From NCBI GenBank assembly GCA_021811275.1, contig JAJZPI010000013.1, forward strand, positions 1 to 39,454: DNA of 39,454 nt, in the 5' to 3' direction. A model generated the notes under the pieces. It saw nothing but the letters and a program-made list of their open reading frames with translations. It did not search any database and was not told the origin of the DNA. The stretch comes from Deltaproteobacteria bacterium (GTDB lineage Bacteria > Desulfobacterota > Desulfarculia > Desulfarculales > Desulfarculaceae). Every line of letters starts with the position of its first letter. The stretch's first letter is position 1. Made by a program: the position numbers and the translations under genes. Positions 9,544 to 35,318 of this stretch are shown in pieces.

Positions 9544-9984
9544 ATGAGCGAGATCGCCGAAGGCATATACCTGGAAACCAAGCAGAGCCAACTGGGCACC
9601 GGGCACACCTCCTCCAACGTGGTCTTCCGCACCTTTTGGGCGGCCCGCCCCGCCGGCGGGCAGGTGGAGGTCTACCTGCTCGACAATCAGCTCGGTCCCA
9701 CCGGCCTGGCCGAGCTCATGAGTCCGGCCGAGTTTCTGGGCAAGGGCTGGATGCACGTGCCGCGGCTGGATGCCCGTTACCAAGGACTCAAGGGCAAGCT
9801 CAAGCCAGTGGCCCAGGCCGCACCGGAGACCCCCGCCGCCCCTCCGGCCAAGGCCGTCCCCGCCGCCCCTCAAGCCAAGCCCGCGTCAGCTCCGGCCGCC
9901 GCCAAGCCCGCGCCCAAGCCGCAGGCCGAGGGCGGCTGGTGGGAGATGACCTCCCGGGGCTCGAACATGCTGATAAAGAAATAG
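9544..9984 (+). CDS. Hypothetical protein with Ala/Pro-rich linker
   Basis: 146 residues, not recognised. Residues 1-85 look globular (EGIYLETKQSQLGTGHTSSNVVFRTFW, VEVYLLDNQLGPTGLAELM). Residues 88-130 are an Ala/Pro/Lys linker with no fold, and the end (GGWWEMTSRGSNMLIKK) returns to aromatic, folded-looking sequence. No signal peptide. The ATG follows PilZ by 38 nt with a weak ribosome site, so the two are probably co-transcribed. Codon use matches the neighbours and the frame is intact, so it is likely real. Confidence 0.6.
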   Translation: MSEIAEGIYLETKQSQLGTGHTSSNVVFRTFWAARPAGGQVEVYLLDNQLGPTGLAELMSPAEFLGKGWMHVPRLDARYQGLKGKLKPVAQAAPETPAAPPAKAVPAAPQAKPASAPAAAKPAPKPQAEGGWWEMTSRGSNMLIKK

Positions 9985-17604: not shown

Positions 17605-17671
17605 TACTACCTCCCTTTGTCCCACGGTCCTGCTGGGTTAATGCCAGGTAACAACTATACTTAACCGTAGT

Positions 17672-17700
17672 TATTTAGCATGGGCCAAGGGGCCGGTCAA
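17672..17700 (-). promoter_or_regulatory. Predicted promoter of the CGGC-family gene
   Basis: Minus strand: TTGACC (17700-17695), 17-bp spacer, TAAATA (17677-17672). A short dyad (AACTA at 17653-17657, TAGTT at 17668-17672) spans the predicted start point and could be an operator, though 5-bp arms are weak evidence. Confidence 0.5.
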
Positions 17701-17864
17701 GCGGGCGGCCGCGCGGGAATTGGCCGGAAAGCAGAAGGTTGGTGCTAGGATTGTAGGAATTGGGAAATACCGGGAACGGCGGGGTAGGGAGTTGACCGCC
17801 GTGTCCCTGCGGTAGGGGTTTTGGCCCGCCGGCAGAGCACAACAAAACCACTCGGAGAGGCGCG

Positions 17865-18644
17865 ATGGACAAAGGCAAGGGAGGCAAGACTCCCATCAGC
17901 TTGCTTATTCAGATGGCGGAGGAGGAGAACAGGCTTACCAACACCCTGATCGACCTTACGGAAAAGACCAACGAACTGGCCCATCAGCGGACTGTGAGCG
18001 CGGAAAAGAGAACCCAGCTGGCCGAGGAGCGCACCCTCTCCACCCGTGAGCAGACGGCCCTGAGCCGTAAAATAACGGAACTTGCCCAACAACGGACCGT
18101 AAGCGCCGACAAACGGACCGACCTGGCCGAGGAGCGCACCCTCCAGGCCCGGGAGCAGACCGCGCTTAGCCGCAAGAGCACGGAGCTTGCCGAAGCGCGC
18201 ACCGCCATGTCCCGCGAGAGGAGCGAACTGGCGGGCCGGCGCACCGACTACGCCACCAGGCGCACCGAGTTGGCCGAGGTCCGCACCGGGCTGGCCACCC
18301 GCCGCACCGAATACTCGCAAACGCGCACCAGCCTGGCCGAGGAGCGCAACCGCTTGGCCGATCGAAGGACCTTTCTCTCCGCCTACCGCTCGCTAATGGC
18401 CAAGAGCCGCACCGACCTGGCCTTCATCCGCACCGGGCTGGCCCTGGTGGCCCTGGGCGTGGCCCTCTTCAGATACTTCGGCCTGGGGCTGTGGACCGTG
18501 CTGGACGCCAGCCTGGTCCTGATCGGCCTGGCCGCGGTGATCACCGGCCTGCGTAATTACCGGCTGACCCGCAAGCTCGAAAGGCTTTTCCAGGAGAGGG
18601 CGGGCGGTATGCTGGAGGCTGTCATGGCGCGAGAGCTGGAGTAG
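17865..18644 (+). CDS. Heptad-repeat coiled-coil protein ending in a DUF202-like two-span membrane domain
   Basis: 259 residues. From residue 36 to about 189 the chain is 22 uninterrupted heptads of the form T-x-L-A-x-x-R. Position 1 is Thr in almost all, position 4 is Ala, Ser or Thr in every one, and position 7 is mostly Arg. Residues 36-70 and 71-105 are a 35-residue tandem duplication. The last heptads (TFLSAYR, TDLAFIR) run into LALVALGVALFRYFG and a second span (LVLIGLAAVITGL), matching DUF202 proteins, whose signature RTxLAxxRT is the same unit. So the coil looks like an expanded DUF202 motif on a membrane anchor. GGAGAGG lies before the ATG. Function unknown; a cytoplasmic oligomeric rod tethered to the membrane is inferred. 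Confidence 0.82.
   Translation: MDKGKGGKTPISLLIQMAEEENRLTNTLIDLTEKTNELAHQRTVSAEKRTQLAEERTLSTREQTALSRKITELAQQRTVSADKRTDLAEERTLQAREQTALSRKSTELAEARTAMSRERSELAGRRTDYATRRTELAEVRTGLATRRTEYSQTRTSLAEERNRLADRRTFLSAYRSLMAKSRTDLAFIRTGLALVALGVALFRYFGLGLWTVLDASLVLIGLAAVITGLRNYRLTRKLERLFQERAGGMLEAVMARELE
17970..18179 (+). repeat. Tandem 105-bp duplication inside the heptad-repeat gene
   Basis: Two in-frame copies (17970-18074 and 18075-18179) encode near-identical 35-residue units (27 of 35 residues identical). The DNA has drifted at many third positions, apart from a shared 21-bp block in each copy encoding LAEERTL. This points to an old duplication kept by selection on protein sequence. Confidence 0.8.
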
Positions 18645-18693
18645 AATTGACCGGCCGGAGCCCACCCGGCCGACAACCAACGGGAGCTGGCCC

Positions 18694-19569
18694 ATGAAAC
18701 CGGTCTTTTGCTTCATCGACGACACCAGCTTCGAGCTGGCCAATTTCGAGGAAAACGCCCTGGCGGCCTTCGCGCGGGTGGAATTCGTGCTGGCCTCGTC
18801 CTTTGCCGAGGCCCGGACCCTGTTGCGCGGCCGTCTGCCCCTGTGCTTTCTGCTGGACATCTACGGGCTGGACCCCGAGGGCCGGTCCGACAGCGCCGCT
18901 CTGCGTCCACCGGAGCCGGCGGCCCTGGCCGCGGCCCTGGGCCAAGCCGGGCCTCTGGAGTCGCTCTACGAGGGCCTGACGCCGGGCGGGGAGGGGGCCA
19001 ACGCCTTCCTACGCCGCCTCTACGCCCGGGTCGAGGGCTGGCAGCGGGCCTTCCAACTGGCCGCCGGAGGGCTGGGCCAGAGCCGGGCCTACGGCCTGTA
19101 CAACCTGGCCCGGGTGCGCGAGCACTATCCCTGGGCCGCGGCCCTGGGCTATTCGCGCAAGGCCCTCTACGCCGACGCCGCGGCCTTTTGCCTGGCCGGG
19201 GCGGACGGCGTCATGCAAAAGCCCCAGGGCGCCGACGAGCCGGCCATAGCCCGGGCCACCCTGGCCGAGGCCCCGGCCCTGGTCAGGGCCGCCTACGCCG
19301 CGGTGGAAAGGCGGCTGGCGGCCATGGCCTCGCAGTTGGCCGCCCGCCTCTGCCGAGAGGGGACCAGCCTGGTTCTGGCCGAGGCCCTGGAGGATGGGGT
19401 CCGCCATCTGGCCCTGGCCGGTCCCCGGGAGGAGCCCGGTTGCGGGCTCGCGGAGGCCTGCCGGGCCCTGGAAGCCTTCCGCTACGAGGACTTGGACCTG
19501 CCTTCCCCGGACCTTGGCCTGGTGCTAAATCTGCGTCAATGGCTGAATTCAATTGAGGGCGCGCCTTGA
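18694..19569 (+). CDS. Receiver-like protein with a large internal insertion
   Basis: 291 residues. The N-terminus MKPVFCFIDDTSFE looks like strand 1 and the acidic pair of a response-regulator receiver; FLLDIYG supplies a candidate phospho-acceptor Asp55; GYSRK (Ser154) and GADGVMQKP (Lys176) resemble the later Thr/Ser and Lys. In CheY about 30 residues separate Asp and Thr/Ser, but here about 99 do, so roughly 70 residues (GLDPEGRSD ... YGLYNLARVREH) are inserted, largely helical. Residues 185-291 form an extra Ala/Leu-rich helical domain. No DNA-binding or kinase domain and no partner kinase nearby. GGGAG lies 7 nt before the ATG. The call is pattern-based. Confidence 0.6.
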   Translation: MKPVFCFIDDTSFELANFEENALAAFARVEFVLASSFAEARTLLRGRLPLCFLLDIYGLDPEGRSDSAALRPPEPAALAAALGQAGPLESLYEGLTPGGEGANAFLRRLYARVEGWQRAFQLAAGGLGQSRAYGLYNLARVREHYPWAAALGYSRKALYADAAAFCLAGADGVMQKPQGADEPAIARATLAEAPALVRAAYAAVERRLAAMASQLAARLCREGTSLVLAEALEDGVRHLALAGPREEPGCGLAEACRALEAFRYEDLDLPSPDLGLVLNLRQWLNSIEGAP

Positions 19570-19597: not shown

Positions 19598-19624
19598 CTG
19601 GCAGTTTCATGCCCTGAGTGCCAA
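19598..19624 (+). promoter_or_regulatory. Degenerate CIRCE-like operator for HrcA
   Basis: The right half GAGTGCCAA (19616-19624) matches the CIRCE half-site GAGTGCTAA at 8 of 9. The left half CTGGCAGTT (19598-19606) keeps 6 of 9 dyad positions across the canonical 9-bp spacer. It lies at the predicted transcription start, the usual place for HrcA autoregulation. Confidence 0.5.
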
Positions 19625-34122: not shown

Positions 34123-35318
34123 CTCCCCGTCAAGCCGCGCGGCGCGCTGGCCAGGCCGCCGCCCACCACCGCCTCCAGTACCTCGCGCCGTCCCATTCTG
34201 GTCAGGGGCGCGAAGGCCAGGGGACCTGCGGCGCCGCTCAGCAGGCCACCGAAGCGCCCCTCCAGGCCCAGGGCCCTCGCTCCGCCCAGGGTGGCCATGG
34301 TCAGGATGTCCTCGGGACGCAGGCCCGGCTCGGCCGCCCGCAGGGCCGCCATCTCCGCCCACAGCGAAAGATCGGGGGCCGAGGCCAGGGAGTCGGTGCC
34401 CAGGGCCAGGTTCACCCCGGCTTTGATGAGCTGCCAGACCGGCGCTATGGCCCCGGTCAGCCCCAGGTTTGAGCGCGGGCAGAGGCAGAGCGAGGCCCCG
34501 CTGGCCGCCAGCATGCGCACCTCCTCCTGGCTCAGCTGCACCCCGTGCACCACCAGGGTGTGGCGGTTCAGGACGCCCATGGCTTCGAGGTGCCAGACCG
34601 GCCGCAGCCCGGAAAGGTCCAGGGCCTGGCGGGCCAGCCCACGCGCCAGCAGGAACTCCTCCAGGCGTGCGCCCTCGCGGCCGTAGCCCAGCATGAACTC
34701 CACCTCGGCCTGGCTTTCGGCGGCATGGATGCAAAAGGGCAGGCCGCCGGCCCGGGCCTTCAAGGCCCGTAGACGAGGGGATGGCACAGAGTAGGGGGCG
34801 TGGGCCGCCACCCCGAAGCCGCGCAGGATGCCGTCGCTCCAATCCATGGCCGCCGGAGGCGGCTCGACCTTGCGCTCGCCCAGGGCCTCGAAGAAGCTAA
34901 CCGCCGAGAGGCCTGCCTCGGCCAGGAGCGCCTGGGCCCGGCCGGTGTTGGTTATGTCGGCCACGCAGGCCACGCCCATGGCGGCCAGCTCGACGGCGGC
35001 GCGGGCGGCGGCGCGGGCGGCCAAGTCCTTGTCGTGGCCGGGGCGGGCCTGGACCAACTGTTCGAGCCAGCCCACGAAGTCCTGCCTGGGCGGAACCGCG
35101 CCGGCCAGGAAGGAAAGCTCCAGGTGGGTGTGGGCGTTAACCAGGCCGGGCATGAGAAGCCCCTCTTCCAGGTCGAGGGTGGGCACCCCGGCGCGGGGCC
35201 GGGGCGCGACCTCGACGATGCTCCCCTGGCGCAGGATAACCGACGCGCCCTCGGAAAGCCCCTGGCGGGGGTCCCAGACCCAGCGGGCGGTGTATTGCAT
35301 GGCTCGATCTTCGGACAT
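34119..35318 (-). CDS. Amidohydrolase-family deaminase (aminodeoxyfutalosine / adenosine-derivative deaminase type)
   Basis: 399 residues of the metal-dependent amidohydrolase superfamily. Metal ligands: NAHTHLELSF (HxH), HAAESQAEVEF, VVHGVQLS and GTDSLASAP. Substrate-region GFGVAAHAPYSVPS and LCPRSNLGLTG match the group with aminodeoxyfutalosine deaminase (MqnX, futalosine menaquinone route) and S-adenosylhomocysteine deaminases, which sequence alone does not separate. ATG 35318 was chosen over 35300; neither has a good ribosome site. A promoter at 35348-35375 leaves a 23-nt leader. The gene ends in the CTAG shared with the second signal peptidase. Confidence 0.85.
   Translation of the reverse strand: MSEDRAMQYTARWVWDPRQGLSEGASVILRQGSIVEVAPRPRAGVPTLDLEEGLLMPGLVNAHTHLELSFLAGAVPPRQDFVGWLEQLVQARPGHDKDLAARAAARAAVELAAMGVACVADITNTGRAQALLAEAGLSAVSFFEALGERKVEPPPAAMDWSDGILRGFGVAAHAPYSVPSPRLRALKARAGGLPFCIHAAESQAEVEFMLGYGREGARLEEFLLARGLARQALDLSGLRPVWHLEAMGVLNRHTLVVHGVQLSQEEVRMLAASGASLCLCPRSNLGLTGAIAPVWQLIKAGVNLALGTDSLASAPDLSLWAEMAALRAAEPGLRPEDILTMATLGGARALGLEGRFGGLLSGAAGPLAFAPLTRMGRREVLEAVVGGGLASAPRGLTGS

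Follow-up and report, generated by a model that had tools for sequence, protein, structure and literature searches.

A DUF202 membrane protein of a Desulfarculaceae bacterium with a long in-register heptad rod, a member of an undescribed protein family

The stretch of DNA that we analysed (hereafter the window) covers 39,454 nucleotides of a contig from a bacterium of the family Desulfarculaceae, and its forward strand contains the gene of a rod protein, the parts of which are summarized in Table 1. DUF202 is the sole Pfam domain of this protein, which has neither a receiver nor a kinase domain. The first-pass annotation had described a membrane-anchored rod with DUF202 similarity in its last 80 residues; the profile search located the domain at the C-terminus well above the curated cut-off (E = 3.2e-8; 34.3 bits versus 23.4 bits; profile positions 1-66 of 68) with the heptads directly ahead of it, in support of both the anchor and the similarity. 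As in DUF202, the membrane helices indicated by hydropathy and AlphaFold2 come after the R-T-x-L-A-x-x-R-T motif. The AlphaFold2 model has an unbroken helix from residue 10 to residue 205 and a second helix from residue 210 to residue 258 (mean pLDDT 84.9, from an input alignment only eight sequences deep and for a lone long helix, which is easy to predict). The first membrane helix (TM1) is thus predicted to be continuous with the rod, which extends it by about 23 nm.

Table 1. Features of the rod protein gene in the window
Feature	Residues	Position	Strand	Basis
Rod protein CDS (P0001), 259 aa plus stop		17865..18644	+	ATG start
N-terminal cap, contains AEEENRLT and runs into KTNELA	1-35	17865..17969	+	alignments
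Heptad rod, 22 units T-x-L-A-x-x-R, one predicted helix	36-189	17970..18431	+	AlphaFold2
Duplication copy 1, 35 codons in frame	37-71	17973..18077	+	sequence
Duplication copy 2, 35 codons in frame	72-106	18078..18182	+	sequence
DUF202 domain (PF02656)	175-236	18387..18572	+	Pfam
Two predicted membrane helices	184-202 and 213-231 (windows)	18414..18557	+	hydropathy, AlphaFold2
C-terminal helix	232-259	18558..18641	+	AlphaFold2, alignment

The heptads of the rod follow one another without a skip, with Thr and Arg each present at their places in 18 of the 22 units, Leu in 14, and Ala, Ser or Thr at the fourth place in all 22. These heptads had been called perfect, which holds for their unbroken spacing but not for their letters, since these vary. 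None of 20,000 residue shuffles reached the best-phase count of 18 for either Arg or Thr, the shuffle maximum being 12. The two copies of the internal duplication, which Tandem Repeats Finder reports as a 105-bp unit, share 29 of 35 residues, and 13 of the 19 codons that differ between them differ silently, consistent with the earlier claim that the protein sequence is under selection. Other short GC-rich tandem repeats, with 12-bp and 27-bp units, were found in the window at 34994-35021 and 9831-9883.

In two related genomes (G002 and G014), a CGGC gene and the gene ahead of hrcA are about 190 bp apart, whereas in the window (17626-18693) the same two genes are 1.07 kb apart with the rod gene between them, suggesting that the rod gene is probably a gene gain, acquired in this species. 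No conserved signalling gene was found at this site, and the neighbours of the rod gene are uninformative on its work. The downstream gene (18694-19569, forward strand) lies upstream of hrcA-grpE-dnaK and has no assigned family. Its start resembles a degenerate receiver by eye (FIDD...LLDIYG); a receiver-type partner was dropped as an explanation, however, because the gene gave no Pfam match, nor any convincing PDB match, and is present in 20 of 40 relatives, of which nearly all lack a rod gene. Heat-shock control through CIRCE was also rejected, with no site found and a weak match at 19601 at chance level.

We gathered relatives of the rod protein by a scan with a degenerate heptad pattern, most matches listed from which were unrelated simple repeats, combined with a filter for a following hydrophobic stretch; a peptide-pattern search of the genome contigs gave no match. 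We define the rod-DUF202 family as proteins in which at least eight heptads run without a break and keep the register of the TM1 arginine, and the window protein belongs to it with 22. The window genome has at least one paralogue (L002; G000, contig C138) of 267 residues with 55% identity over the search alignment, and another species of the same genus has an orthologue of this paralogue, 288 residues long, in which the added length consists of whole heptads. A profile search gave matches in at least 22 of 395 genomes of the window's phylum. Full-length rod proteins were read in at least 12 of the 395, the window's own among them, and the remaining matches were mostly cassettes of multi-DUF202 genes with short runs, plus fragments. 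Strong matches were also found in at least five of 398 genomes from the phylum of L018 (Lysobacter), and forms with 8-11 heptads are known from Pseudomonadota and from one plasmid of a cyanobacterium. This Leptolyngbya plasmid (L306:2377-5413) has a cluster of four DUF202 genes, one of which joins about ten heptads to a long polytopic membrane region, and the adjacent one is a short form of the same sequence; the pair shows directly how the rod grows heptad by heptad.

In the phylogenetic tree, the window copy was grouped with L272, L269 and L123 (support 93/94), and a recent duplication of the resident paralogue was rejected on this basis. The N-terminal cap is common to the window protein, the paralogue and the orthologues of subgroup III, to which the window protein belongs. 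A phage or plasmid origin was rejected on the basis of no phage match and only one cyanobacterial plasmid relative; among the matches listed from viral contigs, the filter for a following membrane stretch left no rod-DUF202 protein. The first-pass annotation knew of no described protein of this form, and the titles and abstract openings of the open literature mentioning DUF202 likewise show no work on such rods. We conclude that the rod-DUF202 proteins are an undescribed family and not an isolated protein, a point which was absent from that annotation.

Across 15 proteins with 290 heptads, Arg occupies its place 267 times and Lys only once, Thr 252 times, Leu 226 times, and Ala or Ser, three places after Thr, 284 times; the three remaining places are variable and often charged. 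The rods range from 8 to 37 heptads, none contains Pro, and the net charge of every rod is positive (+2 to +23). The anchor-to-TM1 distances are 146, 153, 153, 160 and 174 in subgroup III and 142, 191, 198 and 254 in subgroup I; because they are equal modulo 7 within each subgroup, the register is held while the rod length moves. In the eight-sequence alignment, Arg is invariant in columns 119, 126, 133, 140, 147, 154, 161, 168, 175, 182 and 189, and the homologues keep the heptad register. Plotted on a helical wheel, Leu, Arg, Ala and Thr share one face, opposite the variable places. The Ala-only (Alacoil) interface suggested at first is not the obvious reading, because Arg, the most conserved place, shares this face with Ala, Leu and Thr.

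Ordinary DUF202 proteins, including E. coli YidH, have in common with the window protein the membrane domain above the cut-off and the R-T-x-L-A-x-x-R-T signature with which TM1 begins, but they are about 95-130 residues long and have one or two units before TM1 in place of 22. Such genes, with one or two units, are found in the same and related genomes, and together with the short and ten-heptad Leptolyngbya pair they support the earlier proposal that the rod grew from the heptad preceding TM1. The rod of the paralogue (L237:5523-5709) contains a 42-bp tandem repeat of 4.5 copies with 93% matches, which marks a recent expansion and a likely site of length differences among strains. The firm result is that the gene encodes a DUF202 protein bearing a long helical rod in unbroken register, in a family under selection for the register and the arginine.

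The gene neighbourhoods of the relatives differ between subgroups. In subgroup I, the rod gene is followed by a histidine kinase gene and then by a single-domain receiver gene (L274, L275 and L277), or is clustered with a kinase, a receiver and a PPDK-like gene (L273). In subgroup II (L049, L086, L128, L271 and L279), the gene of a rod-DUF202-receiver fusion precedes a PPDK_N/PEP-utilizer gene; the latter was assigned by Pfam in L049, L128 and L279 and by sequence similarity in L086 and L271, and the receiver by Pfam in L128 only, the others aligning with L128 or reading alike. The rod of these fused relatives, too, keeps register with DUF202, over roughly 11-13 heptads, whereas the window protein has neither their C-terminal Response_reg domain nor the PPDK_N/PEP-utilizer gene; the place of its C-terminal helix leads, in subgroup II, into the receiver domain. 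A Cytidylate_kin2 gene lies directly upstream of the rod gene for the paralogue, L007 (G001:C62), L276 and L278. This adjacency spans two separate lineages, and the Cytidylate_kin2-type gene of the window genome also carries a weak BON match. The island of the paralogue further contains a hybrid kinase, an NtrC-type regulator, a SpoIIE-type regulator and a STAS protein. Non-signalling contexts were found within subgroup III, in L269/L123 (an acyl-CoA ligase-type gene) and L272.

Among the matches listed, two-gene multi-DUF202 cassettes were found at eight loci (L023, L029, L037, L059, L081, L113, L118 and L276) from Nitrospirota, Deltaproteobacteria and Acidithiobacillus, with MshEN detected by Pfam in L276. 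These resemble the rod proteins in having several R-T-x-L-A units ahead of each DUF202, but differ in that each protein contains two to three DUF202 domains, in the presence of MshEN, and in having short runs without a long rod. To our knowledge, bacterial DUF202 members have no established function. Overexpression of YidH left D-alanine accumulation unchanged in one assay (PMC10299036).

A structurally characterized relative of the domain is Vtc1, a subunit of the polyphosphate polymerase/translocase VTC of yeast. In the yeast VTC complex, five TM1 helices form a channel lined by pairs of basic residues seven apart (K24/R31 in Vtc1, K698/R705 in Vtc3 and K622/R629 in Vtc4), and two phosphate ions are located at the cytoplasmic entrance of this channel (PMC9911596). 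The Pfam alignment places profile position 1 at K24 of Vtc1 and at R175 of the window protein, and hhalign pairs R31 of Vtc1 with R182; the Vtc1 query segment was identical letter for letter to PDB chains, with the numbering K24/R31. By these alignments, R175/R182 correspond to K24/R31, and the rod carries on the pore stripe of Vtc1, repeating, outward from the membrane, the heptad bearing the pore arginine. This coincidence of the arginine register with the Vtc1 pore register was also absent from the first-pass annotation. With the domain model, Foldseek placed Vtc1 chains near the top of its PDB matches, namely 7ytj_B at rank 2 (2.3 A, 66 columns) and 8i6v_C (2.0 A, 63 columns), a structural match with E values of only 0.24-0.5. 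A PDB search with the full-length profile gave only chance helical matches, and one with the DUF202-only profile did not find VTC. The window protein shares with Vtc1 the DUF202 domain and the basic residues seven apart, but it has two predicted membrane helices where Vtc1 has three, along with a helical extension of 150 residues and no polymerase partner in the genome.

As the best reading, which we hold tentatively and at somewhat less than even confidence, we propose that the protein may be a self-associating, membrane-anchored cytoplasmic stalk that scaffolds phospho-signalling proteins. The first membrane helix of the Vtc1-like DUF202 domain would be extended into the cytoplasm by the 22 in-register heptads as a rigid helix, the DUF202 domains would assemble into an oligomer, and the rods of neighbouring chains would pack together in a parallel coiled coil, with the Arg/Ala/Leu/Thr face making the contacts and the charged face outside. 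The resulting stalk would serve phospho-signalling partners as a scaffold on which they dock or as a transmitter. Its length changes by in-frame duplication of whole heptads, which would make the register essential and the length adjustable. The oligomer is suggested by homology to VTC. We place the rod, presumptively, in the cytoplasm because the receiver of the relatives follows two membrane helices; receiver domains are cytoplasmic by nature. A role in phospho-signalling is suggested by the operons and fusions of the relatives, and the most conjectural step is that the window copy may work as they do, against which stand its lack of a signalling neighbour and the non-signalling contexts of L269/L123 and L272.

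The same lack would fit a plain tether or ruler, in which a dimeric or trimeric coiled coil only spaces the N-terminal cap from the membrane with no signalling partner. The cap and the DUF202 end are conserved, whereas the rod between them gains or loses whole heptads, and the R-T-x-L-A-E units are similar to R-h-x-x-h-E, a trimer motif. We consider this reading plausible but unlikely, as it leaves aside the receiver fusions and kinase/receiver operons of the relatives, Glu occurs at the sixth place of the motif in only 83 of the 290 heptads, and a length of 8 to 37 units is far from fixed. A monomeric spacer in the form of a stable single alpha-helix is very improbable: the rod is rich in Glu, Arg and Lys, free of Pro and predicted as one helix, but it has a conserved Leu/Ala/Arg/Thr face opposite variable, often acidic places, which differs from the mixed E/K/R pattern that characterizes single helices. 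Neutral expansion, with the heptads multiplying by slippage into a functionless rod, would account for the in-frame duplications of the window protein and the recent one of the paralogue; we regard it as the least probable reading, in view of the silent codon changes between the window copies and the register, Arg and Thr kept in divergent relatives, with anchor distances that agree modulo 7.

The alignment with Vtc1, the arginine conservation and the positive net charge of every rod would also suit an arginine-lined conduit, in which a VTC-like pentamer extends its pore by the arginine stripe as a cytoplasmic tube, there to bind polyphosphate or another linear polyanion or to feed it to the membrane. 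However, PPK1, PPK2 and the VTC polymerase (PF09359) were absent from all 13 rod-bearing genomes searched, the window's own included (12 of the 13 being at least 90% complete), whereas the same searches in 14 control genomes found PPK1 in seven, PPK2 in seven and the VTC polymerase in three. Because of this absence, the polyphosphate conduit, attractive though it is for the Vtc1 register, was downgraded to an improbable, minority reading. Lys, which would serve for simple charge, is nearly missing from the arginine place, and no polyphosphate gene adjoins any rod gene examined. More speculative, and still less probable, is a VTC-like pore family in which the arginine-lined entrance helix would be lengthened into a cytoplasmic tube of 8 to 37 heptads (about 8 to 38 nm), capturing or conducting some anionic polymer or phosphorylated ligand that the known polyphosphate kinases do not produce, with its length set by whole-heptad duplication and its output coupled to histidine-kinase/receiver partners.

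DUF202 is widespread, and the rods offer a concrete way into the function of its bacterial members. They show that the heptad of the pore helix can recur as many as 37 times, retaining its arginine and nearly excluding lysine, and in several lineages they link DUF202 to histidine kinases, receivers, and PPDK-type and cytidylate-kinase-like enzymes. The family also supplies naturally occurring length variants with which the growth of membrane rods and coiled coils can be studied.
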